Origin: a virus
Virus record (IMG/VR): IMGVR_UViG_3300042535_000049
Coordinates: 1-31,952 of that record
Reading direction: 5' to 3' (one strand)
Length of the DNA stretch: 31,952 nucleotides
Shown: one piece after another, positions 810-16,108 of the stretch
How positions within the stretch are numbered: the stretch's first letter is position 1
Layout of the letters: the number at the start of each line of letters is the position of its first letter
Made by a program: the position numbers and the translations under genes
Notes under the pieces: model-generated
Told to the model about the DNA's origin: nothing
Database searches by the model: none
Seen by the model: the letters and a program-made list of their open reading frames with translations, nothing else

Positions 810-2996
810 GTGGCCGCTATGAAATACTTGGAAGCAAGGACGGCGGCAGTTGTACTGGATGTAGGATATGAAGGTATTGCAAAAGCTGTGAAACGCGGCT
901 CAGATCAATATCCAAATATCTATATCAAAGGCAACGGTCGCGGCGGTAAAAAACTGCTGATCGGGGTGAGTGATGATGATCTGATGGAGGCATTACGCAG
1001 CGGAGTGATCGATGAGAACATCGATCTATATGACGATTGCGGGATGTTGTGCTCTATGGAAGATCGAAATACTCTTATTTCTAATTCAAAAAACGAAAAA
1101 GAGGTGATTGCGGCGGTCGTTATCGATCCTGATATGAAGCTGTATCTTAATGCATCACCGGATCAACGCACCAAAACGCTTCTAAAAATGGAGGCGGTAG
1201 AGGGTTATGATCAACGGGATCGGAGGATTAGTGCGAAAGAGTACATCCAAAGCCTAGACAATCGGTTCGATCCTATCGGTATAAACGAAGCGAAGCTGTT
1301 TCGGTGGAAAAAAGCGGTTGATGATGCGCGAAAAGTGGGTGAGAGTCCACTGGTCGCACTGCTCGATACCCGTGGTCGTGCTAAAGGCTCAGTCAGTATC
1401 AGTGAGAAGATGCAAGAAATGGCGGTGAGGATGTTCGCCCGTCGTGACAACCCGCTGAGGGTATCTGCCATCTATCAAAATATGCTCCATGAGTTTGGTG
1501 AAGCGACGATGTGCAGTTACGACGTACTCAATAATTTCCTCAATCAATGGAAGATCAAGAACCATTCGCTCTATGCGTTCGCACAGAGTGCGGATAAATG
1601 GAAGAACACTTATCTGCCTGCTATGGGTAGCTTGAGTGAAAAGGCTCTTTATCCAAACCATTATTGGGAACTGGATTCTACCCCTGCGGATATTATCTGT
1701 CGGGATGGCAAACGGTATGCGATACTAGGAATGATCGACATCTATTCGAGACGATGTGTGTTTTGGGTGGATGAGAGATCAAGCAGTTACAGCATTGCTC
1801 GGCTGCTTCGTAAAGCAATCCTACGATTGGGAATACCTGAGAACGTAGTCGTGGATAACGGGAAAGATTATCAATCCAACCACTTCGACTCGATCTGCTA
1901 CAACCTCGGTATCGCAAAGGTAACGGTTCCACCGTTTAGCGGTGATATGAAGCCGCATATCGAACGGATGTTCGGGACACTGAGCCGTGAGCTATTCGAA
2001 GAGTTAGAGGGATATATCGGTCACTCGGTGGCGGAGCGTTCAGCGATCCAATCACGGAGAGGCTTTGCCCATAAGATCGAGTCTCAAGCGAAATGGAGAG
2101 AGGAAGCACGAAAGGCGGAACAAAAAGAGTTTGAGAACCGATTCGCTATCAAAAAAAGCAATCTTGGATTAGAACTCAAGCTTCCGATAGAGGCGGATCA
2201 GCTTCAAAAGATTATTGACAAATGGTGTGACAATATCTATGAGCACAGAGGTCATAGCGGTATTAAAGATAAAACACCTGTAGCGAAATGGAAAGAACAA
2301 GCGATACCGGTCAAAGGTATCAGCGATTCGAGGATGCTCGATCTTCTCCTCGGAGAGAGCTTCGAGCGGAAGGTCGGGAAGAAAGGTATTCGACTCGATG
2401 GTGCGCTCTATCAGCATGTGGCATTAGCCGAATATGTCGGAGAGATCGTTCGGATCATGACTCACTCCGATATGGGGTATGTAAGCGTGTACCGGATGAA
2501 TTATGAACCGATCTGCGTTGCTGAGGATTATGAGTACATGGGCAAAAGCCGTGCTGAACTCGCCGAAGGTAAACGGATCGGACATCGGATCGCAAGAGAA
2601 TACGCCAAGCTTCTTGAAACTTGGGAAGAGACAAGCCGCCGACTTGATCCAACGATTCGAGATCGTATCGAAGCATCGATGGAAGAGAGAAGCGGATGGA
2701 GCGGAGCGGCTACCATCGCCGTATCCAAAACAACTGAGACGATACGTGCAGTTAGTGATGGGGTCAGAGCATTTGCTGTGGCAGATGAAAAAGCTCTCGA
2801 AGAATCCAATATTATCAATATGGATGGAGAGAAACTGCTTCCGAGCGGACGACCGACATTTAATCAACTCGTTGATCGCTTCATGTGGGATTTAGAACAT
2901 GACATGGTGGATGAATCAACCGATAAACTCAAACAAAAACAGCCTGATTTGTGGGACATCGCATATCGGGAGCACAAACGTAAGAAGATTGGATAG
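810..2996 (+). CDS. A: MuA-like DDE transposase
   Basis: A 728-residue transposase expected to bind the phage ends, nick them and join them to target DNA, for both integration and replicative transposition. The N-terminal 60 residues contain a GNGRGGKK segment like the winged-helix DNA-binding part of Mu-type transposases. The catalytic RNase H-fold core has D289 (WELDST), D349 (VVVDNG) and E385 (PHIERM), giving D-60-D and D-35-E spacing. A Mu_transpos_C-type beta-barrel follows at about 526-578, and the C-terminal 150 residues are charged and helical, where MuA contacts MuB and ClpX. GTG 810 abuts the previous stop; ATG 819 is an alternative start. No catalytic residue is missing. Confidence 0.95.
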   Translation: MAAMKYLEARTAAVVLDVGYEGIAKAVKRGSDQYPNIYIKGNGRGGKKLLIGVSDDDLMEALRSGVIDENIDLYDDCGMLCSMEDRNTLISNSKNEKEVIAAVVIDPDMKLYLNASPDQRTKTLLKMEAVEGYDQRDRRISAKEYIQSLDNRFDPIGINEAKLFRWKKAVDDARKVGESPLVALLDTRGRAKGSVSISEKMQEMAVRMFARRDNPLRVSAIYQNMLHEFGEATMCSYDVLNNFLNQWKIKNHSLYAFAQSADKWKNTYLPAMGSLSEKALYPNHYWELDSTPADIICRDGKRYAILGMIDIYSRRCVFWVDERSSSYSIARLLRKAILRLGIPENVVVDNGKDYQSNHFDSICYNLGIAKVTVPPFSGDMKPHIERMFGTLSRELFEELEGYIGHSVAERSAIQSRRGFAHKIESQAKWREEARKAEQKEFENRFAIKKSNLGLELKLPIEADQLQKIIDKWCDNIYEHRGHSGIKDKTPVAKWKEQAIPVKGISDSRMLDLLLGESFERKVGKKGIRLDGALYQHVALAEYVGEIVRIMTHSDMGYVSVYRMNYEPICVAEDYEYMGKSRAELAEGKRIGHRIAREYAKLLETWEETSRRLDPTIRDRIEASMEERSGWSGAATIAVSKTTETIRAVSDGVRAFAVADEKALEESNIINMDGEKLLPSGRPTFNQLVDRFMWDLEHDMVDESTDKLKQKQPDLWDIAYREHKRKKIG

Positions 2997-3067
2997 CGGG
3001 GCGAATCGTCGCTCCGTGTTCGAGTCTTTGCTGTAACAAGGACTAAAAAAACACTCAGGGAGCAACC

Positions 3068-3790
3068 ATGATCGAAGAATTTATTGAAACACGAAATTAT
3101 ACCAACCTTTTGGCTGGTTTTTTAAATCTAAAGGCTTTGCCTACTACAGCACCGCGCATGGGGCTAGGGTTTGGAAACTTCGGGTTGGGAAAAACGGTCG
3201 GACTAGAGCGGATCGCAGCGAAAGAGAACGCGATATTGCTAAGAGCTGCTCAAACATGGAGTAAAACAAGTTTACTCATCAAACTGTGTACCGAATTGGG
3301 ACTCGATACTAAAGGGCATAGCTCACAGATGTACGAACGAGTTAAAGAGTCATTCTTGATCGATCCACGTATTGTGATCATCGACGAGGTAGATGCGCTG
3401 CTAAAAGCTGAAAAGACTCCGGTGCTTGAACTGCTCCGCGATCTGCATGACGAAACACAGATCATCGTCTTTTTTATCGGTATGGAAGAGGCAAACGCCA
3501 AGTTTAAACGGCATAACCACTACTACAGCCGAATTGTAGAGCTGATCAAGTTTGAAGCGATACCGAGAGCAGACGTTGAAAAGTTTTGTGCGCTCAGTAG
3601 CGTAAAGATCGAAGCGGATTTGATGGACTTATTCGTCCAACGCTATCCGAATCTACGACAAATTAAAGTGATGCTGCTCCGACTGGAGAACTGGTGCGAT
3701 ATGAACGGCATCGAAAGTGTCAATTTGAACACATTTAAAACGAGCGGGGTTGAACATGGGCTTGGCGTACAAACGAGTAAGACGAAGTAA
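3068..3790 (+). CDS. B: MuB-like AAA+ target-DNA activator
   Basis: A 240-residue AAA+ ATPase expected to coat target DNA, deliver it to the transposase and confer target immunity. Walker A is GNFGLGKT at residues 36-43 and Walker B is IVIIDE with D106 and E107. RHNHYYSR near 150 is a plausible arginine-finger region. MuB is longer (312 residues) and begins with a helix-turn-helix domain; here the ATPase starts almost at the N-terminus, so that domain is absent. ATG 3068 follows AGGGAG by 6 bases. The gene lies 71 bp after the transposase and overlaps the next gene by 35 bp, so it sits in the same operon. Confidence 0.9.
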   Translation: MIEEFIETRNYTNLLAGFLNLKALPTTAPRMGLGFGNFGLGKTVGLERIAAKENAILLRAAQTWSKTSLLIKLCTELGLDTKGHSSQMYERVKESFLIDPRIVIIDEVDALLKAEKTPVLELLRDLHDETQIIVFFIGMEEANAKFKRHNHYYSRIVELIKFEAIPRADVEKFCALSSVKIEADLMDLFVQRYPNLRQIKVMLLRLENWCDMNGIESVNLNTFKTSGVEHGLGVQTSKTK

Positions 3791-4343
3791 GAAACAGCAG
3801 ATTTGGGAGTTTATGCGAAGAAACCGACAATTCAGAGCCGGAGATTTGATGATGATCTTGGACGTTTCCCAAGATTTTTTAATGCCTATCTTCCGAGCTC
3901 TTGAATTATGCGGGTATCTGCAGCTAAAAGCCGGAACCGATACGTTTAGAGATCGTATGTATCGGCTCAATAAAGATACAGGTGTGCGATCCCCAAGCGT
4001 CCTTAAAAAACCATGCGACATTGTACGTGATATCAATACCGGAGAAGAGTTTATCCTCGATGGTACTCACCCCGTACAGATGGCGGATAAGCTCACCCTA
4101 CTCTACGCGATGAAGTACAAAGAGATGTTTCGTGAGCAGATCGCAACCATTGCCAGCATCCACCTATACTCTGCAAAAATGATCAGATACATGGATGAGT
4201 TTACTGAGTACGGGATCATGGAACGGCTTCCTAGATCATCCAAGCGTCGTGATGATCGAAGAGTATTTAAAATCAACTTGGATAAGCGTAATGACCTCAT
4301 TAGAACTATTGAAGAAAGCCTGCGACCTGCACGGTCAGCGTAA
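3756..4343 (+). CDS. Winged-helix-like early regulatory protein
   Basis: A 195-residue basic protein with no family I can name. Residues 10-60 look like a winged helix (FRAGDLMMILDVSQDFLMPIFRALELCGYL) and a second DNA-binding-like segment lies near 130-180 (LYSAKMIRYMDEFTEYGIMERL). ATG 3756 is chosen over TTG 3750; the start lies inside the 3' end of the B gene, implying coupled translation. The position between B and a small helix-turn-helix gene suits an early regulator or accessory transposition factor, but this is inferred from context. Confidence 0.75.
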   Translation: MGLAYKRVRRSKKQQIWEFMRRNRQFRAGDLMMILDVSQDFLMPIFRALELCGYLQLKAGTDTFRDRMYRLNKDTGVRSPSVLKKPCDIVRDINTGEEFILDGTHPVQMADKLTLLYAMKYKEMFREQIATIASIHLYSAKMIRYMDEFTEYGIMERLPRSSKRRDDRRVFKINLDKRNDLIRTIEESLRPARSA

Positions 4344-4611
4344 GGTTGCGAAGACTCTTAACCGCAGTGCAACGACAATCAATCAAACGCTTCACGGTAA
4401 GTATCCAAAACCCGAACCGATACTTGAAATGGTCAAGCTGGCGTTTTCAAGCTTGAGAAGTAGCGATGTCCCCTGCCCCGTTTTGGGTTCGATACATCGC
4501 CAAACCTGCGAACGGTACCGAGAGTGGGCTTCGTGTGAAAAGGTGCATCCTGATCGACTGTATCGGGATGTTAAAGATAAGTGTGCGAGTTGCACGATAG
4601 GAGGGAAATGA
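4291..4611 (+). CDS. Phage HTH regulator with cysteine-rich C-terminus
   Basis: A 106-residue protein. Residues 1-45 form a Cro/XRE-like helix-turn-helix (QRKVAKTLNRSATTINQTLHGKYP). The C-terminus carries spaced cysteines in the pattern CPVLG, TCERY, SCEKVHPDRLY and CASC, resembling a zinc-binding knuckle. The CPVLG ... C ... P-RLY ... C-x2-C arrangement recurs in small early-region proteins of Mu-like phages. Longer in-frame starts exist upstream, but ATG 4291 gives the compact domain and a 53-bp overlap with the preceding gene. Likely an early regulator; the DNA target is unknown. Confidence 0.75.
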   Translation: MTSLELLKKACDLHGQRKVAKTLNRSATTINQTLHGKYPKPEPILEMVKLAFSSLRSSDVPCPVLGSIHRQTCERYREWASCEKVHPDRLYRDVKDKCASCTIGGK

Positions 4612-4724
4612 TGAGCCAAGTCTACATTTGGAAAAAGAAAAAGGTGCATACCTATGGGTGGCTAATTGCTTTGATTATCGTGGCTTTAGGCGGAACGATC
4701 ATTGATTTAACGATGGGAGGATGA
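4611..4724 (+). CDS. Small single-TM protein
   Basis: A 37-residue peptide supported by a near-perfect ribosome site, AGGAGGG at 4599-4605, five bases before ATG 4611. It overlaps the previous stop by one base. After a basic N-terminus (WKKKKVHTYG) there is one hydrophobic helix at about residues 17-30 (WLIALIIVALGGTII), predicting a tiny inner-membrane protein with its N-terminus inside. The family is not recognised; such early micro-proteins could act in exclusion or host interference, but nothing here proves that. Confidence 0.6.
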   Translation: MSQVYIWKKKKVHTYGWLIALIIVALGGTIIDLTMGG

Positions 4725-4725
4725 T

Positions 4726-4905
4726 GTGGAACAAAAAGAGATCAAAGAAGGTGACTTTGTATTGGCGGATGGGTTTAGAGGCAGAGTAATCCGTTTCCGT
4801 AAACTCCATGGTGAGACGTTAGTCGATATCGAAATAGGAGGTGTAATCAATCCATATCAGATGAAAGATATTAAACCGGAGCAAAGCGATGAAAGCGGTG
4901 GATGA
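4726..4905 (+). CDS. Small KOW/SH3-like hypothetical protein
   Basis: A 59-residue protein starting at GTG 4726, supported by GGGAGG at 4715-4720 five bases upstream. The pattern EGDFVLADGFRGRVIRF followed by VDIEIGG and INPYQMKDIKP resembles a small SH3/KOW-type barrel of the kind in which xGDxV...GxV precedes a ligand-binding strand. It starts one base after the previous stop and overlaps the next gene by 17 bp, so it fits the continuous early operon. Function unknown. Confidence 0.6.
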   Translation: MEQKEIKEGDFVLADGFRGRVIRFRKLHGETLVDIEIGGVINPYQMKDIKPEQSDESGG

Positions 4906-5122
4906 GTTTGTTTCAACTAACGAAATTGTTGAACGTATCAAGGATGCTATTAGTACAAAGGTCGGCAATAAAAAAGTCTTTGATCAAGATGTAGCGGACT
5001 TATTAAATATTCCAAGAAAGTCATTTGGTTGCGTAAAAAAAAGAGGTTACCCAATTTTTTATCTGGAAGTTATAAAACTTTGCTATCGGACCGGACTTGA
5101 TCCGATGAAGTTGTTGTTTTAG
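4889..5122 (+). CDS. CI-repressor-N-terminal-like HTH protein
   Basis: A 77-residue DNA-binding protein. Residues 34-77 (DQDVADLLNIPRKSFGCVKKRG...LEVIKLCYRTGLDPMKLLF) match the layout of the N-terminal domain of phage CI-type repressors: helix-turn-helix, then a helix ending in a Gly-hydrophobic-Asp turn. No C-terminal dimerisation or peptidase domain follows. GGAG at 4878-4881 precedes ATG 4889 by 7 bases. The gene ends the first early cluster, just before a non-coding stretch with three hairpins. It probably acts as a Cro-like or auxiliary regulator rather than the main repressor. Confidence 0.75.
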   Translation: MKAVDEFVSTNEIVERIKDAISTKVGNKKVFDQDVADLLNIPRKSFGCVKKRGYPIFYLEVIKLCYRTGLDPMKLLF

Positions 5123-5134
5123 AGTGTTTCTCAA

Positions 5135-5185
5135 GATCGCCGACGGGCGGTCTGATGGAGTTCTCCATAGGTGGTCTGTGCAGAC
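5135..5185 (+). promoter_or_regulatory. Three consecutive short hairpins in an intergenic leader
   Basis: Within the 89-bp gap before the DUF3164 gene there are three closely spaced inverted repeats: GATCGCC/GGCGGTC (5135-5152, one G-T pair, loop GACG), ATGGAG/CTCCAT (5155-5168, loop TT) and GTCTG/CAGAC (5174-5185, loop TG). None is followed by a clear T-run, so a simple terminator is less likely than an RNA leader, an mRNA processing site, or operators for the adjacent HTH protein. Confidence 0.4.
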
Positions 5186-5211
5186 TTAATAAATCATGAC
5201 AAGGATAGATT

Positions 5212-5862
5212 ATGACAAAAAACGAACAAGGTCATTGGGAAGATAAACAAGGCGGTTGGGTACATCCTGATCTGATTGCGGTTGATAAGCAGCTGGAAGA
5301 TGAAATGGTTGAATCACTGGTCGATGAAGCAAAACAAGTACATGAAGTACTGATTGATTTTAAAGTCAGAGCGTTTGATAAATGCTTTAGCTTGGTGAAT
5401 CTACTTCGTCAAAACTACGGTCTTGATCGTATGAAAAAGAGTGAGTCCGGGTCAGTCACATTTAAAAACTTCAACGGCACGAAAGAGGCACAGATCAAAG
5501 TCGCAAAACTGATCACATTCGATGCAAAGCTGAAACTTGCGAAAGAAAAGCTAGACGAGTACTTCACCGAGAAGACAGAGGGTGCCGATCCTGAGATTCA
5601 AACATTGATCACTCGCGCTTTTGAGGTCAAAAATGGCAATGTAGATACTAAGCAGATTCTATCGCTTAAGTCCTATCAGATCAAGCATCCGAAGTGGCTT
5701 GAAGCTATGGCAATGATCGATGATGCGACCGAGATTGCCGGAACGAAAAGCTATCTCGGTTTTAAAGAGCGTGAGGGTAATTCAATCGACGGTGAACTTA
5801 AAACCATCGTGCTTGATTTCGCATCGGTACCGACACGAAAAAAAGAGGGAGGTGCGGAATGA
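5212..5862 (+). CDS. DUF3164 family phage protein
   Basis: A 216-residue soluble protein matching the DUF3164 family typical of early regions in Mu-like phages. Visible hallmarks are the N-terminal tryptophan segment HWEDKQGGWVHPDLI, a long helical centre, and the later part with EIQTLITRAFEVKNGNVDTKQILSL. The biochemical role is unknown; proximity to transposition and replication genes suggests DNA metabolism. AAGGA lies 7 bases before ATG 5212. The next gene overlaps by 4 bp. Confidence 0.85.
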   Translation: MTKNEQGHWEDKQGGWVHPDLIAVDKQLEDEMVESLVDEAKQVHEVLIDFKVRAFDKCFSLVNLLRQNYGLDRMKKSESGSVTFKNFNGTKEAQIKVAKLITFDAKLKLAKEKLDEYFTEKTEGADPEIQTLITRAFEVKNGNVDTKQILSLKSYQIKHPKWLEAMAMIDDATEIAGTKSYLGFKEREGNSIDGELKTIVLDFASVPTRKKEGGAE

Positions 5863-6098
5863 GTGCCGTCCCCGGAATCATGCGTGAGGTACAAGATGGC
5901 GGAATCGTAGTCTTTAACAATAAAAAGCTACAGCATGATGAGCTAAGGGGTTATGAGGGAAGCGATGTCGAACTCGAATTGGAGATCGATGTCGATACTG
6001 AAAAAGCGTGTTTTCGTGTCTACACGATGTTCGATGATGAAATCTGCGTGATCGAGTTGGATGATGTCGAATCTATTGGGGAGGCGGTCAATGCCTAG
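5859..6098 (+). CDS. Orphan transposase-C-terminal-like beta-barrel protein
   Basis: A 79-residue acidic protein. Residues 15-74 line up with the beta-barrel of this prophage's own transposase (residues 526-578): both have an initial GI, then an L-x-x-Y-x-G-x-x-V turn, a VY strand, an ICV strand and E...(I/M)G at the end. It therefore looks like a stand-alone copy of the Mu_transpos_C fold without a catalytic core. Such a piece could compete for partners or DNA and modulate transposition; that role is inferred. It overlaps both neighbours, so it belongs to the early operon. Confidence 0.6.
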   Translation: MSAVPGIMREVQDGGIVVFNNKKLQHDELRGYEGSDVELELEIDVDTEKACFRVYTMFDDEICVIELDDVESIGEAVNA

Positions 6099-6615
6099 CG
6101 CAAACTTTATGACAACCATATCCGGCAAAAAGATTGTTTATGATGATCTACAGCCTGAGATGTTTGATATTACTGATATTGCTCACGCATTATCGAATAT
6201 TTGCCGTTTTGGAGGACATATCGAACAGTTCTACAGCGTGGCACAGCATAGTGTAATGGTGTCGAAAATGGTACCTAAACACTTGGCTTTAGCGGCACTG
6301 CTGCATGATGCCAGCGAAGCGTATCTGAGCGACATTGTCCGACCTGCTAAACGTATGCTTCCACAGTATAAAGAGTTAGAGCTTGAGCTTCAGAGTGTTA
6401 TCGAGGAACGATTCAAAGTCACGTTTGATCATGAAGATATTCATATCGCCGATAACCGTGCGCTGTATGCAGAAGCCGAATACTTCTATGGTGACATTAG
6501 AGACTGGGGATTGGATAACTTTGTGTGGGATGCAGTAATCCATCCTTTTAGTCCGCAAGAGTCAAAACTGTTGTTTATGCATCGGTTTAATGAGCTGGCA
6601 TTTGGTGGTGGGTGA
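6091..6615 (+). CDS. HD-domain phosphohydrolase (YfdR/YfbR-like)
   Basis: A 174-residue HD-superfamily enzyme. Metal ligands are visible: H53 (SVAQHSVMVS), H72-D73 (ALLHDASEAYLSDIVRP) and D121 (HIADNRAL). The ITDIAHALSNICRFGGH segment before the HD core is typical of the phage and prophage family that includes E. coli CPS-53 YfdR and is related to YfbR-type deoxynucleotidases. It probably hydrolyses a (deoxy)nucleotide phosphate. ATG 6091 is chosen because GGGGAGG lies 6 bases upstream. Roles in nucleotide-pool adjustment or in countering a nucleotide-signal host defence are both possible; neither is shown. Confidence 0.85.
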   Translation: MPSANFMTTISGKKIVYDDLQPEMFDITDIAHALSNICRFGGHIEQFYSVAQHSVMVSKMVPKHLALAALLHDASEAYLSDIVRPAKRMLPQYKELELELQSVIEERFKVTFDHEDIHIADNRALYAEAEYFYGDIRDWGLDNFVWDAVIHPFSPQESKLLFMHRFNELAFGGG

Positions 6616-6950
6616 TGGAGATCAACTACAAAGATTTCTCTCCCAGTGATTATGAAACCATCATGTCAGCGCTAATCGAAAGCAAGATGTTCCCAGACAT
6701 TGAAGGTGTTATTCTAAGAAGTCTTCATACAGAAAAATATCGAAGACTTCAGAAACTGTGGAACAAAAAGGTAACTGAGCATGAAACAAAGTTCAGCAAG
6801 TATAAGAGCAGAGGACTTCCAAAGCATGTCATGCCTGAATATACCAAGTATGTCAGATACATGGATACTTTGAAAAAGAATCTGAATAAACAGGTTGAAA
6901 TACTTAAGCAAATCGGTGTAATCAGTGATGAACCGAAAGTAGAACAATGA
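6615..6950 (+). CDS. Hypothetical charged helical protein
   Basis: A 111-residue, Lys/Glu-rich, largely helical protein without membrane segments or motifs I recognise. ATG 6615 overlaps the preceding stop by one base; GTG 6612 is an alternative. Residues 40-105 look like a continuous basic helix pair (KYRRLQKLWNKKVTEHETKF and later YMDTLKKNLNKQVEILKQIG), compatible with nucleic-acid or protein binding. The next confident gene starts 73 bp later. Confidence 0.65.
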   Translation: MEINYKDFSPSDYETIMSALIESKMFPDIEGVILRSLHTEKYRRLQKLWNKKVTEHETKFSKYKSRGLPKHVMPEYTKYVRYMDTLKKNLNKQVEILKQIGVISDEPKVEQ

Positions 6951-7023
6951 CGTGGATTTAACAGCCTCCATAGTGATGGGGGCGATTGAATCAACTTGCA
7001 TTTTAAATTCAAAAGGTAAAAAA

Positions 7024-7926
7024 ATGAATCCATTTCGCGGTCAAGGACTAAAGTCCGAACATTTTAATCACGAAGTTAACTACATCATCGATAACTTCTT
7101 GGTCGAGCAAGCGATTACGATCTACTTTGCCCCGCCTAAGCAGGGTAAGAGTCGATACAGTCTCGGATTGACGAAGTACCTTTATGAAAACACTGACAAG
7201 ATCATTCAGTATTTCGACTTTGATAATCCGCTCTCGGCTCTGAAAGAGCGCGGAGCTTCGAAGATCATCGAGGAGTTATGCGAACGGCTTGACTACGTTC
7301 ACCCTGAAACTGCGGCTATGACTTCGCATGAGGTTTTAAAGCTTCTCGTTGAGGGTGCGGTAGGTGATGCATATCGGGATTACATCTTCTTCTTCGACTC
7401 AATCACCGACTTCGTCAGAGACGTGCAGAATGAAGCGATGGCTAAAAGCTTTATGAACGCGATGAAGCGATTACGCAATGCCGGAGCGACTGTCATACTG
7501 TTACATCATACGAACAAAAACGAAAAGAACTATCAGGGAGCCGGAGTCTTTAAGTCGGCGGCTGACAATGTGTACTTTATGCGTCAAGGTAACGGAACTG
7601 TAGAGAACGATCTCTTCTTGCTCGATGTCGAAGCGGGACGGTTCCATGTCGAGAACTCAGCGTTCTATCTCGATAAGAAGACCTATGACCTCAGCATCGT
7701 TGCTTATGATCAAGCGATGATCCGACCTGAAGAGCAATCATTCATCGACTCGATCAAAGAGGTGATCAAAAAGAATCCTGACGGTATCGGTCAGAGTCAA
7801 CTCCTCGCCGAGATCGGAAAAGCCAAAGACGACAAACTCGCCCGAACCAATCTCGCTAAATATACAGGTCGCTTTTGGGAAGTCAAAGACGGCAAAGGCA
7901 AGTTAAAACTCTACTTTCTCCTATAG
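7024..7926 (+). CDS. RepA/RecA-fold hexameric ATPase (AAA_25-like)
   Basis: A 300-residue ATPase of the RepA/DnaB-like RecA fold. Walker A is APPKQGKS at about residues 36-43, Walker B is YIFFFDS with D125, and ILLHHTNKN at about 158-166 is the conserved His-His sensor of RepA-type and AAA_25 proteins. A C-terminal winged helix (about 235-300) seems present. ATG 7024 follows AAAAGG by 7 bases; earlier in-frame GTG and ATG codons give a poor N-terminus. Mu itself recruits host DnaB and needs no such ATPase. A repeat cluster resembling iterons lies four bases after the stop. Confidence 0.8.
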   Translation: MNPFRGQGLKSEHFNHEVNYIIDNFLVEQAITIYFAPPKQGKSRYSLGLTKYLYENTDKIIQYFDFDNPLSALKERGASKIIEELCERLDYVHPETAAMTSHEVLKLLVEGAVGDAYRDYIFFFDSITDFVRDVQNEAMAKSFMNAMKRLRNAGATVILLHHTNKNEKNYQGAGVFKSAADNVYFMRQGNGTVENDLFLLDVEAGRFHVENSAFYLDKKTYDLSIVAYDQAMIRPEEQSFIDSIKEVIKKNPDGIGQSQLLAEIGKAKDDKLARTNLAKYTGRFWEVKDGKGKLKLYFLL

Positions 7927-7929
7927 TCT

Positions 7930-8028
7930 ACCACACGAACCACACAACCACAACCACTTACAAAACCCCATAAATAGCCATTTAGTTAGTGGTATTTATG
8001 TGGTTAGTGGTTAAGTGGTCTATGTGGT
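7930..8028. repeat. Inverted cluster of ACCAC/GTGGT pentamers
   Basis: Four ACCAC copies (starting 7930, 7939, 7947, 7953) face five GTGGT copies (ending 8028, 8019, 8011, 8004, 7993) with nearly mirrored spacing (9, 8, 6 against 9, 8, 7, 11). A perfect 8-bp pair CATAAATA/TATTTATG (7969-7976 and 7993-8000) lies inside. The whole could fold as an imperfect hairpin of about 100 nt or bind a protein repeatedly on one helix face. It occupies almost all of the gap between the RepA-like ATPase and GemA. Candidate origin, operator or RNA element. Confidence 0.65.
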
Positions 8029-8055
8029 AAAACATCACTAAATAAGGACTGCATT

Positions 8056-8460
8056 ATGACAAAAAAACAAAAAGACGCTCATGCAAGCCTGATAAAACAG
8101 GTGCATACATCGATACGGTATCAGAACTATTATCGCAATGAGAGAGAGGAATACGTCGAAATGCTCGAAGGAGCTTTCGGCAAAGACTCATCGGTTGCAC
8201 TGAGTGTGTCAGAGCTGATCATGCTGGTCGATTATCTGAATATGAAGCGTGACGAACTCCCGACATTTACGCCCAAACAATCCTCTCCGGCACAGGTATG
8301 GAAGATCATGCAGTTGTGGGAAGCCAAAGCACGGGATAAGAGCGATGCCGCACTGCTGTCGTTTTGCAAACGGATCATCAAAAAAGAGTATGAGACACCG
8401 AACCAGATGGAGTTTAACGAAGCTCAAAAGGTGATTTTAGCACTGGAAAAAATGAAGTAA
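8056..8460 (+). CDS. gemA: GemA-like (Mu gp16 / DUF1018) regulatory protein
   Basis: A 134-residue protein with the GemA/DUF1018 layout: an N-terminal HASLIKQVHTSIR helix, then YVEMLEGAFGKDSSVALSVSELIMLVDYL, then PAQVWKIMQLWEAKARD. In Mu, GemA alters host gene expression and DNA supercoiling during the lytic cycle. It sits immediately upstream of mor, as in Mu-like genomes. AAGGA lies 8 bases before ATG 8056. The gene starts 28 bp after the pentamer cluster, so its expression could be controlled by that element. Confidence 0.8.
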   Translation: MTKKQKDAHASLIKQVHTSIRYQNYYRNEREEYVEMLEGAFGKDSSVALSVSELIMLVDYLNMKRDELPTFTPKQSSPAQVWKIMQLWEAKARDKSDAALLSFCKRIIKKEYETPNQMEFNEAQKVILALEKMK

Positions 8461-8468
8461 GAGAAACG

Positions 8469-8533
8469 CCCCTCGTATGAGAGACGTGTGTAATTCAGGC
8501 GTGAGAACCGAATTATACATCATCTGCGAGGGG
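8469..8533 (+). promoter_or_regulatory. Long hairpin that sequesters the mor ribosome site
   Basis: Three nested stems align around one axis: CCCCTCG (8469-8475) with CGAGGGG (8527-8533), ATGA (8477-8480) with TCAT (8520-8523), and GTGTAATTC (8488-8496) with GAATTATAC (8510-8518, one G-U pair). The 3' arm contains GAGGGG, the only good Shine-Dalgarno sequence for ATG 8540. Folding would therefore hide the start of the late activator. No T-run follows, arguing against an intrinsic terminator. The trigger that would open it is unknown. Confidence 0.6.
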
Positions 8534-8539
8534 TTTGCA

Positions 8540-8818
8540 ATGGATTCAAAAGATACCGTAACTAATTTAGACATTTTCAGAGAGTTTACCCGCCGAATCA
8601 GAGAAGATGGAGCGAGCGATGAAGAGCTGATGCAAGAGTACGGCGGAATGCCGATCTATGTACCCTCGTGGAAGCTCAACGGACGCAACGATGAAATCAT
8701 CAAAGACTATCTCGAAAATAAGCTTAATGCTAAACAACTAGCTATGAAATATTCACTCAGCGGATCTCAAATCTATGAGATTATAAACAAAGTCCGCACC
8801 CCTCAACTATTCTCCTAA
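8540..8818 (+). CDS. mor: Mor-family late/middle transcription activator
   Basis: A 92-residue Mor/C-family activator. Conserved features are EYGGMPIYVPSW at about 33-44, an arginine before the DNA-binding region, and a C-terminal helix-turn-helix (NAKQLAMKYSLSGSQIYEIINKVR, about 63-86). Mor binds as a dimer near middle or late promoters and recruits RNA polymerase. A longer in-frame reading from 8477 would start inside the hairpin and lacks a ribosome site, so ATG 8540 with GAGGGG 6 bases upstream is preferred. No separate C activator was found, so this protein may control both late operons. It overlaps gpG tail to tail by 12 bp. Confidence 0.9.
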   Translation: MDSKDTVTNLDIFREFTRRIREDGASDEELMQEYGGMPIYVPSWKLNGRNDEIIKDYLENKLNAKQLAMKYSLSGSQIYEIINKVRTPQLFS

Positions 8819-9283
8819 ATACCCCAACAATATATCCAACACCTCAATTTTAGCATTGTCATATAACTCACCATCGTTCGTGATCGGCATAAACGGTCGC
8901 GCTTCGATCTTCCCGTCTTCGGTACCAAACTGGTGAACGATAGGATAGGGATAACGATCTTTACTGTACGCGTTTACCCCAACGATCACACTCGTATCAT
9001 CGGCACTGTATCCGGTACTCTCTCGCGTATTTCGGTCTTTACTCTGCAGTATCTTGCTTCCGCCATACTTTTCTTTGTAAGCCTTTGTCGAATCGGCAAG
9101 GGGATGCCATGCGTGACCGTCGGGCGATGTCTCACTATCGAAGCTCTCTTCCATGATGTTCGTGAGATAGGAACCTACTGCGCTAAAAGGCTTTTGAAGG
9201 TTTTGCATTTTATGCAGTAGATCCGCAATCGCATGATCTACCTGATCCGCTCCGGTGACTTGGATATTTATCATCTCCGACAT
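8807..9283 (-). CDS. G: Phage virion morphogenesis protein (Mu gpG / P2 gpS family)
   Basis: A 158-residue member of the gpG/gpS tail-completion family, last gene of the leftward head operon. Visible family features are FDSETSPDGHAWHPLADSTKAYKEK and the C-terminal HQFGTEDGKIEARPFMPIT. It is expected to act at head-tail joining or tail completion. The start at 9283 is preferred because AAGGAG (9289-9294) lies 6 bases upstream on this strand; a longer reading to 9358 lacks one. It is separated from gpF by 90 bp containing inverted repeats (ATGGA/TCCAT at 9334-9358 and CGCAT/ATGCG at 9331-9372). Confidence 0.85.
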   Translation of the reverse strand: MSEMINIQVTGADQVDHAIADLLHKMQNLQKPFSAVGSYLTNIMEESFDSETSPDGHAWHPLADSTKAYKEKYGGSKILQSKDRNTRESTGYSADDTSVIVGVNAYSKDRYPYPIVHQFGTEDGKIEARPFMPITNDGELYDNAKIEVLDILLGYLGE

Positions 9284-9373
9284 TCTCGCTCCTTTGTGGT
9301 ATAATTTTTTATTCAATCGAAAAGATACGCCGCATGGAATGAGCAATGAGCACTCCATCGTGTAAAGATGCGG

Positions 9374-10537
9374 TTAACGGGTGCCTTCTTTTCGATAGAT
9401 CAACTTCTCACCCCTCTTTTTCTCCACAGTCGATGCACTATCAATCAAATACAAACTGACTCCCTGAGTTTTATCGCTCTGATATTCAAACACTGCCATA
9501 AGCGCTTTTTTCTTCCCTTTGTCATCCGTAAAGTACCGCATCATCTTTTTAACGAGGCGTTTTGCCTTATCATCCCACTCCAAATAAATCTCGTCCGGAT
9601 CATCGATAGTGGTGGCAAACTCATCGATAAAGAGATGCCGATCTTTTTTAGTGATCTTCGAGTGTCCGCTGAATGAGTGGAAGAGACTATCATCGATCAC
9701 AGTGGGATCACCGATTTTGTCAATATAAGTATCTCCGGGCTTGATACGAAGATCATCATAGAACTTTTGCTTGAGAGCGGCATCACTAAGCTCTTTATAT
9801 TCTCGTTTTGGGAGTATCGTCGGAAGAGAGAGCAGGCTTTTATCGAGATCGATCTTCGAGAGCTTACCGACACGATTACCGGCTCCCGGATTGTATGACC
9901 ACTCAGGTGTCGCGATATTATCAAGAGTGCCTTTGTGTACACTCCACCCGCGTCGTTTGATCTGCGCTTCACTCCATGCTCTCACTTCACAATGACATAG
10001 CCATGCATTCGGTGGATAGTTATATGCCCACCACGGATCACTTTTAGGGAGTACAATGCCGTTTTTCGCCTTGTGGCTCATACGCGGATGTTCGGAGAGC
10101 CCACCGATATATTGGAGATACGGAAGATCACTCGCCATCTGCTGATCGTATCGCGCGGTGGCACGGGCGACCATTGTGTTGGTTTTGAAAATAGTTTTGA
10201 GGCGGCGACCGCCGATCACTACCTCTTTGACCTCTCCGGTAGATGGATTTACGATCTCTTTTTTACCCCACCATCCTTTCGCCTCAAGCGTCGGGATGAT
10301 CTGCTTTTTCCAATCTTCGAAGCGTGTCCCGTTCGCCATCGCTTCAGCGATAGAGCCGTGAATGTCACTGAGCAGATCCGCGCGGGTTACTTTGGCTACG
10401 GTGAATGCTTTATGATGAGCTTCGCGTTGCATCTCCTGATAATCAAAGGTGAGTTTGTAGCCTTTGGATCGGAGGTACTCTATCGCTGCAGTGGGTTTAA
10501 GTCCGAATGCGAACGACGGTTTAGGGAGAGGAGGCAT
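9374..10537 (-). CDS. F: Mu gpF-like minor head protein fused to a PBECR-like nuclease domain
   Basis: A 387-residue protein. Residues about 45-190 match the gpF-like minor capsid domain: TIFKTNTMVARATARYDQ, HPRMSHKAKNGIVLP, and YNYPPNAWLCHCEVRAWSE with its Cys-x-Cys. After a linker, residues about 265-384 (GDTYIDKIG, GHSKITKKDRHLFIDE, DDPDEIYLEW, then LMAVFEYQ and VSLYLIDSAS) resemble the PBECR-type barnase/EndoU/RelE-like nuclease modules attached to phage head proteins. The head part helps connect portal and capsid; the C-terminal part could enter the cell with the DNA. The nuclease assignment is by pattern only. It lies 2 bp after the portal gene, with GAGGA before its ATG. Confidence 0.85.
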   Translation of the reverse strand: MPPLPKPSFAFGLKPTAAIEYLRSKGYKLTFDYQEMQREAHHKAFTVAKVTRADLLSDIHGSIAEAMANGTRFEDWKKQIIPTLEAKGWWGKKEIVNPSTGEVKEVVIGGRRLKTIFKTNTMVARATARYDQQMASDLPYLQYIGGLSEHPRMSHKAKNGIVLPKSDPWWAYNYPPNAWLCHCEVRAWSEAQIKRRGWSVHKGTLDNIATPEWSYNPGAGNRVGKLSKIDLDKSLLSLPTILPKREYKELSDAALKQKFYDDLRIKPGDTYIDKIGDPTVIDDSLFHSFSGHSKITKKDRHLFIDEFATTIDDPDEIYLEWDDKAKRLVKKMMRYFTDDKGKKKALMAVFEYQSDKTQGVSLYLIDSASTVEKKRGEKLIYRKEGTR

Positions 10538-10539
10538 TG

Positions 10540-11937
10540 CTAATCCTCTTCGCTATCACGCTCTACTTCAGCGGTGCCGAGGATGTAAGAGCTTTGCAAT
10601 GCCATATCCATCGTATCCTGTAACTCTGCGATGTCCATGCCCGGATAAGCTGCGTGTAAAAGATCAATCGCCTCTTCGAAACTGTTTGCTTGATCGATTA
10701 TTTCCACGATTTGAGTTTGAAATGAGAGTGCGATCTTGTGGATATCGACACTGTCACTCAGTTCATCCGTCGTTGTAATCGGCTTGGTAGCACTCAGAGC
10801 GTAAAGCTTTTTCATGAGAGCATGGTTAGCGATTTTAGAGGGTTCGATGGCTTCAACGGTGATGTTGTAGGTCTTCTCGATGTAATCCTGTGTCGGTCGG
10901 TATCCCATTTTCGTGATCCGCTCGTCCCGCTCTGCAAGGGAGAGGTTCGGATCGTCTTTGTCTTTTAGGGTCACTTCGATGGTTACACTGAGATTATTGA
11001 TCGCTATATAAGCTTCAATCACCCGCTCAATGAGCGTGATTGTCATGTTCTCATCCGCCATTGCGATGTCTTCACGGATATCATTATGGGTTTCAGCAGC
11101 AGCGTAGCTTCCCCCTTTGACATTCCCAGTGAGGTTTCCGCCGAGGATGGCTTCGCGGATCTGATCGTCGAGGTAGGATGTGATCTTGTCAAAGTCACCC
11201 GTTTTGTCTGCGGTCTTAATCTCGATGCTCTCTTCATTATCGATTACAGCTGAATCTCCTGAGAGCATCGCATAGAGTTCGTCCGCCATCGTGTCTTTGT
11301 CCCCGTCCGTTTTACCGATAGCCCACGGTACGCCGTATTTTTCGAGGAACTTGACCCAAAACTGCAACGAAGCATTTTTAAACTTCACGTACCAAAACAG
11401 TGACTCGGCGAGTGGTGTACCCATCGGACGGTGGTATTTGTCTTCATAGAGAGCATAGACGGCTTTGTGTTCAGGGATCTCTTCGAGTGATCCATACGGG
11501 GCATAGTAAAGGATCTCATTTTTGATCATGAACTGTGTATAGTCACGCTCGATGAGTTTCGGAACTAATACCGAATCCTCATCATTCCAGTTGATCTCAA
11601 AAATAGCCGCACCTTGAAACGGAGCATCGAGGACTTTGCGAAGTGTTCCGGGATGAAATACGCCATAGAGTCTATTGGCCATCTCCTCATTGTCGCTGGT
11701 GAAGATAATCTCTTTTTTGAGTGTCGCCGCTTTACGGCTCCCGAGTGATGAAATGACCGTTGCATCTCGAATAATGCGGTCGAGTTCTTCACGACTTAGC
11801 CATTCATGGCGTATCGGAAGATTGTCCATGATGCTGACAAGGAGATCAACTGCGGGAGCTGCTGAGGCTTTACGTTTGTCCTTACTATTCGGCTGCGGTT
11901 GTTTGGATGCAAAAAGGTTTGAAAATAGACGTTTCAT
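10540..11937 (-). CDS. Portal protein (Mu gp29-like, DUF935)
   Basis: A 465-residue portal of the DUF935 family, forming the ring through which DNA enters the head. Typical segments are RDATVISSLGSRKAATLKKEI near 58-80, ALYEDKYHRPMGTPLAESLFWYVKFKN near 160-190, and FLEKYGVPWAIGKT near 200. Length and position between large terminase and gpF-like protein match Mu gp29. AGGAGAGG precedes the ATG, which overlaps the terminase stop by 4 bp. The last 80 residues are helical and acidic. Confidence 0.92.
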   Translation of the reverse strand: MKRLFSNLFASKQPQPNSKDKRKASAAPAVDLLVSIMDNLPIRHEWLSREELDRIIRDATVISSLGSRKAATLKKEIIFTSDNEEMANRLYGVFHPGTLRKVLDAPFQGAAIFEINWNDEDSVLVPKLIERDYTQFMIKNEILYYAPYGSLEEIPEHKAVYALYEDKYHRPMGTPLAESLFWYVKFKNASLQFWVKFLEKYGVPWAIGKTDGDKDTMADELYAMLSGDSAVIDNEESIEIKTADKTGDFDKITSYLDDQIREAILGGNLTGNVKGGSYAAAETHNDIREDIAMADENMTITLIERVIEAYIAINNLSVTIEVTLKDKDDPNLSLAERDERITKMGYRPTQDYIEKTYNITVEAIEPSKIANHALMKKLYALSATKPITTTDELSDSVDIHKIALSFQTQIVEIIDQANSFEEAIDLLHAAYPGMDIAELQDTMDMALQSSYILGTAEVERDSEED

Positions 11938-13664
11938 TGTCCTCTCCTATGGGAATTTCGAGGTCGAACGGATCGGCGGTTACTACGCGGTTCGGAAGTG
12001 TGTTGTTTTTTGGCAAGCTTGCTTAGGCGATAGACACCGGCTAATCCATCGGGGGCATCATCGTTTTTACCTTCAGGATGATCTTCAAGCTGCTCAATGA
12101 GAATAATCTGATCTTCGTGAAGTAAGATCTCTCCGTTTTCGATTGGAAGCTCCAGCTCTTCGATACGGGAATCTTTGTTGTCGCTGTTATGAATACCTTT
12201 GAGCGGCATGTGAACACCGCGCTCGTATGCCTCTCTTAAGATGAAAGGCTTGAGATGGAATTGCCCGCCGTTGGTCTCTACCCCGAAGACCTTGCACCCG
12301 TATCGATCTTGCAAAGTTACTACCCGCTTAATGATTTCTATTGATCCGATCACCTCGTTGATCGATTCGAGGACGTACCCTTTGAGGGCTTTATCATCAA
12401 CTCCGAAAATCGTCATATTCGTGAAGTCGCTCTTCTTTCCGCTTCCTGCGGGGTCACACCATCCATAGATTGTCAGTTGCTTGAGAGGTGGATGAGATCG
12501 CCAAAAGTGCATTGATTCACGTTTGAAGTTTTGAGTATCTAAGCTTGGATTATTTTGGAGTTCTTTGGCAAATGCTCTAGGAGCCTCGGAGCGTTTACGC
12601 ATCAATGTTTCAATCCCAACTGCATCCGGCCATAAGACACGAGCACCCGCATCCATTTCCGGCTTTTGGCTCATATAGAAATCGTGTGCCTCTTCGGTAC
12701 CGCGTGATTTGTAGATTATTGCGTACCGTTCCCATAGATCAAGACGATCCGGGAAGGTGATGATCGCCCGAAATATCTTCGGATTCCAAAACCCGAACTT
12801 CAGCTTACGAGCGAGTACCGAATCGCGGTGTAGGATGGTTCCGATGTAGATGATGTCCATATTACCATCTACGCTTCCAAGGTTAGCAACCGCTTCATCG
12901 ATCCATGATTCGAGCTTGTCACGCTGATCTCGGCTTCGGACGTTCTCATCGTTCTCAAGATCATCGATGAGGGCGAGGTCTACACGATAAACTCCGTGCT
13001 TGACACCACGTACCCGTTTACTCGATCCATAACCCTTTACCCGTATTCCGTTACGGGTGATGATGTCTCCGATCCTCCACGTTTTTCCGATTCCGGTTGC
13101 GTGAGGAAAGTCAGCCTTTAGGTTGTCGTTTTCGGATAGCTCGGCTTTGATCGATTCGATGAGTGTTTCAGTCAGCTCTATCGCATCGGAGAAGATCGTG
13201 ATGAAGTGCTTGAGGTCATTGACGATACACCAAATGACATAGACTAACGATACATCGGTGGACTTACCGTGACCGCGCGGTGCGGCGATAGCATACTTGT
13301 AACCCATCGCTGAAGCAGCGCTATTGCTCGTAGAACATCGATCCGCTATACGATGATAAACACCTTCGAGATGCTCTTGAAGATCCGACTTGCCCGAAAG
13401 ATAATAGTAATGCGGGAAGTAAGTTGTTCGGAAATAGTGGAAGTCATGGCGTTGACGATCTTTTCGCTCGTCTCTCTGCTCTGGAGGAAGTGTGGCATTG
13501 GATCGGATCGTCTCTTTTAGATCACTCGTATATTCGCCGATCCATTTGATGTATTCACGGCGGGTGAGCCGCTCTGCCATGTGTTCACTATTGCCATCGG
13601 CTAACAGATCGGCTTTGGTATCCGATAAGAGACGGCGGAGTTCTTCTTTGTCAAATAGCGACAT
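11934..13664 (-). CDS. Large terminase subunit (Mu gp28-like)
   Basis: A 576-residue packaging motor. The ATPase has Walker A APRGHGKST at about 128-136 and Walker B LALIDDLE at about 230-237. The C-terminal RNase H-like nuclease shows acidic positions in IYGWCDPAGSGKKSDF, KVFGVETNGGQF and DDAPDGLAG. It cuts packaged DNA by headful, as in Mu, with host DNA flanking the phage ends. ATG at 13664 is chosen because AGGGG lies 9 bases upstream; ATG 13673 directly touches that site. The gene overlaps its small subunit by 14 bp. Confidence 0.93.
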   Translation of the reverse strand: MSLFDKEELRRLLSDTKADLLADGNSEHMAERLTRREYIKWIGEYTSDLKETIRSNATLPPEQRDERKDRQRHDFHYFRTTYFPHYYYLSGKSDLQEHLEGVYHRIADRCSTSNSAASAMGYKYAIAAPRGHGKSTDVSLVYVIWCIVNDLKHFITIFSDAIELTETLIESIKAELSENDNLKADFPHATGIGKTWRIGDIITRNGIRVKGYGSSKRVRGVKHGVYRVDLALIDDLENDENVRSRDQRDKLESWIDEAVANLGSVDGNMDIIYIGTILHRDSVLARKLKFGFWNPKIFRAIITFPDRLDLWERYAIIYKSRGTEEAHDFYMSQKPEMDAGARVLWPDAVGIETLMRKRSEAPRAFAKELQNNPSLDTQNFKRESMHFWRSHPPLKQLTIYGWCDPAGSGKKSDFTNMTIFGVDDKALKGYVLESINEVIGSIEIIKRVVTLQDRYGCKVFGVETNGGQFHLKPFILREAYERGVHMPLKGIHNSDNKDSRIEELELPIENGEILLHEDQIILIEQLEDHPEGKNDDAPDGLAGVYRLSKLAKKQHTSEPRSNRRSVRPRNSHRRGQ

Positions 13665-14139
13665 CGAGTCCATCCCCTATTCGTTCGACGATCTCGATGA
13701 ACTGCTCCAGCATCGCTTTGTCTCCAAAGGCTTTTAACTCTTCGGCAATCGCTTGGATGACATGCTTGATGATTCCATGCTTATAGGCTATCGGGTCTTC
13801 ATGACGGACGATACCGCGCATTTTGGAAAAGGCATCGGCGAGCTTTACGATCTTATCCGCTTTGTCCTCAGCCGGCATTTTAGAATCGCGCACCTCTTTG
13901 AGGGTATCATGCATATATCCGACGAAGTCACTATAGAGATGCTCACGGCGAGGAGAGTCTGCGGCGATATGCTTCTCGGCTCTGAGCACGTCCCAATCAT
14001 ACCCTGCTGCCGCATCGGCTGATTTGTAGTTTTGGATGGTGCGTTTGCTCGATTCGAGGATAGCGGCGATCTCTTCTTCATTCTTACCTGTGATATAGAG
14101 AGCTCGTGCTATCTCGATCTTTTGTTCTCGCGTTGCCAT
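13651..14139 (-). CDS. DUF1804 protein, probable small terminase (Mu gp27-like)
   Basis: A 162-residue protein beginning with a helix-turn-helix (REQKIEIARALYITGKNEEEIAAILESSKRTIQNYKS), the expected DNA-recognition module of a small terminase. The rest is helical (LADAFSKMRGIVRHEDP, then GIIKHVIQAIAEELKAF) and matches DUF1804, the gp27 position of Mu. It should recognise the pac region near the phage left end and feed DNA to the large subunit. It overlaps both neighbours slightly, so it is cotranscribed. Confidence 0.85.
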   Translation of the reverse strand: MATREQKIEIARALYITGKNEEEIAAILESSKRTIQNYKSADAAAGYDWDVLRAEKHIAADSPRREHLYSDFVGYMHDTLKEVRDSKMPAEDKADKIVKLADAFSKMRGIVRHEDPIAYKHGIIKHVIQAIAEELKAFGDKAMLEQFIEIVERIGDGLDVAI

Positions 14140-14522
14140 CAGTTGAACCCTCCGAAGTTGATCGGTCGAGTTCCGTGTCGGAATGCGCTTGATGTGCCTT
14201 TAGGCTTTTGCGGTTCGCTCATCGTTGTCGGGATCGTCCCTTTGCCCATTTTCGTCAGAGCTGATTCGAGTTCTTTTCGATCTTTCGGATCGTGGAGGTC
14301 GTGGAGCTTTCTGAGTTCGTAGATGGCTAGATCGACGGCGATGGTTTTTAGGTATGGTGTTGGATTTGAGGGAATGACGAGGAATGAGGAGATAAAGGCT
14401 ATCGCATCGTTGATGGCTTCATCGACTACTGCGGTATCAATCTCTCCCGTACCGTTGAGATCGCTCATCTGAGTCAGCTCTGTAGTACTGAGTTCTTTTT
14501 TTAAGTCTGCGATAGTAATCAT
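14139..14522 (-). CDS. Mu gp36-like protein (DUF1320)
   Basis: A 127-residue DUF1320 protein, the head-tail adaptor-like family of Mu gp36. Features are the N-terminal ITIADLKKELSTTELTQMSD, an acidic VDEAINDAIAFISSFL helix, and YLKTIAVDLAIYELRKLHD. GAGAGGG precedes the ATG. In Mu this gene follows the capsid gene; here it also lies directly downstream of the capsid gene but is followed by the terminase block, showing module rearrangement. Confidence 0.85.
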   Translation of the reverse strand: MITIADLKKELSTTELTQMSDLNGTGEIDTAVVDEAINDAIAFISSFLVIPSNPTPYLKTIAVDLAIYELRKLHDLHDPKDRKELESALTKMGKGTIPTTMSEPQKPKGTSSAFRHGTRPINFGGFN

Positions 14523-14644
14523 TTGACCCTCTCATAGTAGTGTTTAATAGGTGTTTAAAATCGCTTAGAAACGATTTAAACCTTTTCGGCGATAAATGAC
14601 GCGGATTAAGACTTAAAACGTTTTTAGGGCTATTTATGAGGCTA

Positions 14645-14658
14645 TCCCCAAAAGGGGA
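14645..14658. terminator. Hairpin just after the capsid gene
   Basis: TCCCC-AAAA-GGGGA is a perfect 5-bp stem with a 4-base loop, 6 bases beyond the capsid stop on the minus strand. It lacks a following T-run, so it is at best a leaky terminator or an mRNA-stabilising 3' structure that would raise capsid message over terminase message. A second inverted repeat, TTTAAAATCG/CGATTTAAA at 14554-14580, lies in the same 142-bp gap, before the gp36-like gene. Confidence 0.4.
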
Positions 14659-14664
14659 AAGCGA

Positions 14665-15648
14665 TTAGACTTTTTTGCCGCGAATGACTGCGTTTGGATT
14701 GAGACAGATCGGAAGTGGCTTGGTTTCACTCATAACTTTGACACCTCGTCCGCTCGGAAGAACTTCTGTGGTACCGAAGAAAAGAGTCGGAGCGCTTTTT
14801 ACCGCTTCAGTATGATCAGCACGACCATAGACAAAGTCAGTGAAGTTAGCACTGTTCGGAATGGCTGCCATTTCATTAGTACCTACGAATGAGACAAGTT
14901 GCCCATGTGTGTTTTGGTATTTAACAACATAGCCTTCAAAACGACGTCCATGAACTACGAGGAAGATAGTCTCACCCTCGGTAATGATAGAGGCAAGTTT
15001 TTTGGTAAACAAGTCTTCGGCTGTAGCCAATCCCATTACGTGGTTGTAAAACCCGCGACCGCATTTAACGATATAGCCCGGATTCATCCCAAGCTCTTCA
15101 ACCATCGCATCATCGATCTCAGTAATTGATTCAAGTAACGGTTTGCCGGATTTGAATTCAACCTGCGAACGAGTCGAAGCGAATTCAAAAAGGGTCTTAC
15201 CTGTTCCGTCCATGACCTTACCGAAGAGTGCTCCGGTACACATATATTCGATAGTCGTATCGAAGCTAAGACGATGCTCTTCTTGAATATTTCCGATTTC
15301 TGAGGCAAGCTGAACCGGTTGTGACTCATCATCAAGGCTTGAAATTTCGTTCAAGGTTGAAGCACCGATAGTATTTTCAAGCGGGAAACGTGGAAGCTTG
15401 ACAGATAGTTCAAATACAGTCGGTCGTTCATGAACCAAGTGTTCCGCATCCGGTGCTACTGATTGAAGAATCAATCCTGAGCCTTTCATAATCTTGATCG
15501 TAGCAGTACTGCCTAAAATACCGCGAGCTTTAGCTTTGAAGTATTTATCAAAGATAGGTGTATCAGTCACTTTCTTTAGTGACAACGTTTTACTTGTGTT
15601 TTTGACGCCCCATTTTTTAGCGACGTCTTCAGCGTTCATTACAGGCAT
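14665..15648 (-). CDS. E: Major capsid protein (lambda gpE family)
   Basis: A 327-residue protein matching the lambda E-type HK97-fold capsid family rather than Mu gpT. Supporting segments are PIFDKYFKAKARGILGSTATI, the middle LLESITEIDDAMVEELG, and the C-terminal FVYGRADHTEAVKSAPTLFF followed by a basic end. The preceding gene on this strand looks like the gpD decoration partner, which supports the call. AAGGGG lies 6 bases before the ATG at 15648. It forms the icosahedral shell around the scaffold. Confidence 0.85.
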   Translation of the reverse strand: MPVMNAEDVAKKWGVKNTSKTLSLKKVTDTPIFDKYFKAKARGILGSTATIKIMKGSGLILQSVAPDAEHLVHERPTVFELSVKLPRFPLENTIGASTLNEISSLDDESQPVQLASEIGNIQEEHRLSFDTTIEYMCTGALFGKVMDGTGKTLFEFASTRSQVEFKSGKPLLESITEIDDAMVEELGMNPGYIVKCGRGFYNHVMGLATAEDLFTKKLASIITEGETIFLVVHGRRFEGYVVKYQNTHGQLVSFVGTNEMAAIPNSANFTDFVYGRADHTEAVKSAPTLFFGTTEVLPSGRGVKVMSETKPLPICLNPNAVIRGKKV

Positions 15649-15658
15649 TCATATCCCC

Positions 15659-16108
15659 TTATTGCATTGTGATTTTATTTTTGAAAAATGTGTGACGCAT
15701 TGCCGAATCGTAGCCGCGTAGTTTGTTCTCTACGGCAACACCTGTAATCAGAATCGAAGCCATACCTGTGACATCGATGTTTTCCATCAGGATACCGTTA
15801 GCATCCCATACCCCATCATCATTCCACTTGGTTGCATCTGTTCCCGGTTCTGCAGTATTCAAAGCTGCAAGTGATGTGTAAATATGTCCATTGTGATAAA
15901 CAACAACATCAATGGCATGTTCACCTGCTACCCAATGAGGTACAGTCATAGCATCAAAAGTGACACCTCCATCTGTAGTGCACAGAACTTTTCCGATGAA
16001 ATATTCATCACCTTCCGTAACAGTTGCAGGTACGTTTACGGTCGCATATATAACACGCTCTTTTTTGACGATGACTTCATCGACGAGCGGTGGACGTGTG
16101 TAAATCAT
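15659..16108 (-). CDS. Head decoration protein (lambda gpD-like) with carbohydrate-binding-like insert
   Basis: A 149-residue protein. The outer parts fit the lambda D decoration fold: EYFIGKVLCTTDGGVTFDAMT early, and GILMENIDVTGMASILITGV late. Between them, residues about 56-97 carry a chitin-binding (CBM5/12) type pattern: W, then VVVYHNGHIYTSL, N, EPG and a closing W. The gene lies between protease/scaffold and capsid, as D precedes E in lambda. It would sit on the outside of the head, stabilise it, and might display the insert to bind cell-surface or environmental glycans. AGGAGG precedes the ATG, which overlaps the protease stop. Confidence 0.7.
   Translation of the reverse strand: MIYTRPPLVDEVIVKKERVIYATVNVPATVTEGDEYFIGKVLCTTDGGVTFDAMTVPHWVAGEHAIDVVVYHNGHIYTSLAALNTAEPGTDATKWNDDGVWDANGILMENIDVTGMASILITGVAVENKLRGYDSAMRHTFFKNKITMQ

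Follow-up and report, generated by a model that had tools for sequence, protein, structure and literature searches.

The 79-nt gap between gemA and the late transcription activator gene mor of a Mu-like phage appears to hold a two-strand control element, in which a short RNA, antisense to the mor leader, would act together with a sense-strand lock on the Shine-Dalgarno (SD) sequence, in the manner of lambda aQ and Q; we give this reading a probability of about 0.5. The phage DNA is a virus record of 31,952 bases, analyzed at full length (the window). Its rightward early genes end with gemA (8056 to 8460, plus strand; PF06252, E 4e-13; phrog_286), followed by mor (8540 to 8818, plus strand; 92 amino acids; PF08765; phrog_532, late transcriptional activator), and the leftward late operon (8807 to 17519) has its end, 8807, converging on mor. 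The start of mor at 8540 was fixed from conservation among relatives, whose sources are Campylobacterota (Sulfurospirillum and an Arcobacter MAG); an in-frame ATG at 8477 is an unlikely start, its frame being closed in L005 and L006. The late promoter region (17519 to 17592), inspected by eye, had no obvious common motif. The Mu F-like head protein at 9374 to 10537 (minus strand) has PBECR2 (Barnase/EndoU/ColicinE5-D/RelE-like nuclease) as its C-terminal domain and is likely a MuF-type toxin fusion.

The gap contains a long-range hairpin that was described in an earlier note on this DNA (8469 to 8533, plus strand), and folding bears it out. The sense RNA folds at -28.9 kcal/mol, against -13.8 kcal/mol (standard deviation, 2.6) for shuffled sequences (z = -5.87; 0 of 200 as good), and the wider segment 8440 to 8570 gave a z of -3.3. 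The paired structure stands, but the stems of 7, 4, and 9 bp given earlier do not hold exactly; the minimum-energy fold has about 9 + 2 outer and 11 + 2 inner pairs. The mor SD lies within the 3′ arm, as had been claimed: GAGGGG (8528 to 8533, plus strand), far from being left single-stranded, is entirely paired with CCCCUC (8469 to 8474), and the anti-SD 5′ arm, CCCCUCG (8469 to 8475, plus strand), pairs with 8527 to 8533 in the minimum-energy fold and the alignment. Mean accessibility of this SD is about 0 (0.009), the lowest of 31 ribosome sites in the phage; the other 30 range from 0.035 to 0.84. A search of the window against Rfam gave nothing above the gathering threshold, the best weak match having an E value of 0.85.

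The same GAGGGG is hidden, in the modelled ensemble, in seven phages: the window, L002, L003, L005, L006, L043, and L074. Comparison with these six related leaders, the check suggested earlier, confirmed that the SD pairing is kept but gave no clean double compensation, the arms of the outer stem being almost invariant. When arms were swapped among six phages, 12 of 720 combinations, six of them identical-arm ties, matched the native fold in stability, which suggests weak to modest coevolution of the outer stem in a permutation test that takes no account of kinship; the main clade comprises about six independent, mutually related lineages. The inner stem arms gave no coevolution signal in the arm-swap test. 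In L022 there is a possible substitute pairing, GUCCCU/AGGGAC, with an SD accessibility of 0.27. The lock is absent in L026, L027, and the Sulfurospirillum phages, where Mor is 60 to 73% identical; because the pairing is lost in these relatives, the hiding stem is a feature of this clade and not of mor genes in general.

Translational control of mor, the central proposal of the earlier note, is partly supported by the in silico sequestration of the SD in seven phages, with the outer-stem coevolution a weak addition. As to what might open the lock, control by temperature is unsupported: the modelled SD stays shut across 10 to 65°C, still closed at the upper end, which is not the behavior of an RNA thermometer. 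A ribosome finishing gemA fares partly better, since one placed at the gemA stop opens the modelled SD to some degree (0.01 to 0.44); the spacer between that stop and the hairpin stem is 8 nt (8461 to 8468) and is 8 nt in 8 of 8 clade phages. The whole element might be read on the sense strand only, as a lock on the SD that gemA translation (coupling) or some other factor opens, the features of the opposite strand being by-products of the inverted repeat. The hiding of the SD in seven phages, the 12-of-720 result for the outer stem, the constant distance to the gemA stop, and the 4-bp overlap of gemA and mor in Mu are all in keeping with this reading. It is nonetheless rather unlikely in our estimate: the modelled ribosome frees the SD only in part, the minus-strand hairpin described below survives loss of the lock (L026 and L027), and the G.U signature of that local hairpin has no explanation on the sense strand.

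The minus-strand hairpin (8466 to 8487), ACGUCUCUC-AUAC-GAGGGGCGU followed by UUCUCUU, folds at -12.1 kcal/mol on the minus strand and -3.7 kcal/mol on the plus strand. In eight phages (the window, L002, L003, L005, L006, L026, L043, and L074) it is perfect on the minus strand (-8.4 to -12.4 kcal/mol) and poor on the plus strand (-2.2 to -6.0 kcal/mol). Across its 8 to 9 bp, 70 of 70 pair cells pair on the minus strand versus 52 of 70 on the plus strand, the 18 others being A.C mismatches; cells were counted by hand alignment, MAFFT having put the short hairpins out of register. Both-sided changes occur at three pairs, 1 (A-U/G-C), 2 (C-G/U-A), and 9 (C-G/U-A), and among 5040 arm permutations the native minus-strand combination is, ties aside, the best (a count of 6, versus 60 on the plus strand), again with kinship left out of account. 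L006, whose arm is 2 nt shorter, and L074, where a minus-strand G.U is a plus-strand A.C, agree with the minus-strand fold only. A stable, covarying structure is thus found on the antisense strand, as in cis-antisense RNAs of the aQ/OOP/sar kind. A local hairpin on the sense strand had been considered as an alternative switch conformation and was dropped, since the same hairpin is perfect only on the minus strand.

A second, more distant clade, L022 and L027, carries a hairpin of different sequence at the same place, similarly far from the -10 described below, with energies of -12.5 and -11.7 kcal/mol on the minus strand and -6.1 and -4.3 kcal/mol on the plus strand. Over ten phages the minus segment beat the shuffle mean every time, weakly in L043 (z = -0.6); the plus-strand z was above -1 in seven. 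The minus-strand hairpin explains the purine run GAGAGAC, which is conserved though largely unpaired in the sense hairpin. Wobble pairs let one C-run match the SD in the sense RNA and close the hairpin in the antisense RNA, and both pairings may constrain that run; L026 has the C-run without a GAGGGG SD.

Upstream of this hairpin, a scan of both strands found a sigma70-type match on the minus strand, TTGCAA-17-TATAAT (8540 to 8512). The -35-like TTGCAA (8535 to 8540, minus strand) overlaps the mor start codon and is invariant in 7 of 8 phages, and at the -10 TATAAT (8512 to 8517, minus strand) TATAATTC is invariant in all eight; the spacing is 17 nt in six of seven phages and 19 nt in L005. 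The 9-bp hairpin with its pyrimidine-rich tail begins about 24 nt past the -10. A promoter match opposite the target is thus present, as in cis-antisense RNAs of the aQ/OOP/sar kind. L027 carries TGCTATAAT and L022 TGCTACAAT, both extended -10 boxes; because these distant phages keep the -10 and a minus-strand hairpin of their own, the antisense layout is, to judge from sequence, more widely shared than the SD lock. In the Sulfurospirillum leaders, neither is clearly visible. The window has just one case of a perfect TATAAT promoter followed directly by a hairpin of 9 bp or more, versus 0.017 expected per shuffled window. Scanning a virus collection for the promoter-plus-hairpin pattern returned 40 loci, of which 35 were new, encoded neither mor nor gemA, and looked chance-like.

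The -10 lies within the inner dyad, TGTGTAATTC/GAATTATACA (8487 to 8519, plus strand), whose 3′ half is near-invariant and whose 5′ half is variable in the eight phages; the partner of the invariant TATAATTC appears as TGTAATTC, CATAATTC, TGTAATTG, or TATGATTC. With 10-bp arms spaced about 13 bp apart, the dyad might serve as a DNA operator for Mor or the repressor. The half-sites are, however, unequally conserved, a second copy was not found in the window, the inner arms do not coevolve, and an operator would leave the outer stem and the minus-strand hairpin unexplained, so that we consider it very unlikely. Slighter still are the prospects of an arrangement like that of T4 gene e, in which the SD is hidden in read-through transcripts, while a mor mRNA lacking the 5′ arm comes from a plus-strand promoter within the hairpin. 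The layout is that of T4 e, soc, 49, and I-TevI (PMC3014915), and TATACA does lie within the conserved 3′ arm, but this is a weak -10, no plus-strand promoter was called here, and the same stretch reads as a perfect TATAAT on the minus strand.

The main and strongest rival takes the minus-strand hairpin to mark the 3′ end of the converging late operon (8807 to 17519) or to be its terminator, the promoter match being incidental and there being no antisense RNA gene; coupling on the sense strand, a promoter as in T4 gene e, and a DNA operator are all less likely than this. The hairpin is the best terminator-like site on the minus strand within 1 to 18000, and nearly all relatives have a late operon that converges on mor. 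Against this, the U-tract is not conserved: the tail after the hairpin is U-rich in the window, L002, L003, and L006 but poor in L043, L005, L026, L022, and L027. In L006, moreover, promoter and hairpin persist even though mor is parted from the late operon by two plus-strand ORFs, one of 101 aa and one encoding an AAA protein of 323 aa, and a terminator gives no account of the invariant TATAATTC or of TTGCAA held at 17 nt (19 in L005). On balance we judge the terminator unlikely, while taking it seriously.

We favor the antisense RNA acting together with the SD lock. By default, the mRNA hairpin would hide the SD, and early read-through transcript would yield little mor translation. The minus-strand promoter would give a stem-loop RNA of about 50 nt or more (predicted ends 8455 to 8505, minus strand, from the positions of promoter and hairpin), whose sequence complements the last part of gemA and the 5′ half of the mor leader. 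Like lambda aQ in the case of Q, this RNA and the opposed transcription might then impose a threshold on Mor. We slightly favor a repressive effect, through cleavage by RNase III or collision of polymerases. Translational activation is a live alternative in the models: the antisense RNA would cover the 5′ arm and not the SD, and therefore its pairing would free the SD in this clade; covering the 5′ arm raised modelled SD accessibility from about 0 to 0.5 to 0.7. Control by a small RNA is the best supported of the candidates in the earlier note, which had overlooked that the RNA would be cis-antisense, encoded by the opposite strand of the same hairpin.

One inverted repeat might even encode two opposed RNA devices, with the antisense RNA unlocking translation and so turning the lytic activator on. 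The G.U pairs would let the local hairpin fold on the antisense strand only, on the sense strand that same arm would keep the mor SD locked, and the antisense RNA's own GAGGGG copy would compete with the SD for the anti-SD arm; we hold this fuller scheme to be improbable. A leftward peptide behind the antisense promoter was rejected, its 72-aa ORF not being conserved. Antisense to gemA, about 155 to 308 nt upstream of the mor start, a minus-strand frame of 42 to 49 codons is open in seven related phages and is probably a by-product of gemA conservation.

Other relatives have other mor leaders. In the Sulfurospirillum-type phages L007, L019, L021, L023, and L024, a different conserved leader has a TTCTCAAATTGAGAA palindrome after the gemA stop; in most leaders of this type TTTACATGTAAA precedes mor, and the SD is not hidden. 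More distant Campylobacterota mor-like genes (L045, L047, L048, L049, L075, L076, and L077) seemingly have TATAAT-type sense promoters of their own, and several have repeated TTGCAAT/ATTGTAA motifs upstream, both judged by eye. The Campylobacterota prophages L053, L054, and L055 resemble Mu in that mor overlaps the stop codon before it (ATGA). In L006, a homologue of the window's early AAA protein (1074 to 2045, L014 contig; 35% identical) sits after mor, not before gemA.

The annotations and literature searched describe nothing past transcriptional control around mor in Mu-like phages, and a literature search of incomplete coverage found no relevant publication on an antisense RNA to mor. For the Mu-like phage Fc02, strand-specific RNA-seq places gemA and mor in the early operon, antisense RNA being unmentioned in the available part of that report (PMC9936078). 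The strand-specific G.U signature could be used to detect antisense RNA genes from sequence alone, and the element, if real, would provide a defined RNA target for studies of late-gene timing in Campylobacterota phages.

Mu itself (NC_000929) shares the gene order gemA-mor and the Mor family, but its two genes overlap by 4 bp and leave no leader. The T4 genes e, soc, 49, and I-TevI likewise hide the SD within a leader hairpin, which in e and I-TevI silences longer read-through transcripts (PMC3014915); gene e is released by late promoters on the sense strand, immediately before the ribosome site, whereas the strong promoter here faces the opposite way. Lambda OOP and P22 sar (PMC5415839, PMC12197685) are short antisense phage RNAs directed against the mRNA of a developmental regulator, cII and ant, respectively, as the candidate RNA, predicted from sequence, would be; target and position differ, and the U-tract here is not conserved. 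The closest parallel is lambda aQ, made from paQ and antisense to Q, the gene of the late activator (PMC12197685; PMC2327240). In both cases an antisense promoter opposes a phage late-activator gene and a threshold for late genes is expected, but aQ is about 220 nt long and CII activated, whereas the candidate RNA lies opposite a leader, has a conserved short hairpin and no known activator, and faces a sense leader that hides the SD, in an unrelated phage family. We conclude that the proposal combines known devices in a new way and does not amount to a new class; if true, the mor antisense RNA and translation lock would give the Mu family, a group unrelated to lambda, its counterpart of lambda aQ-Q.
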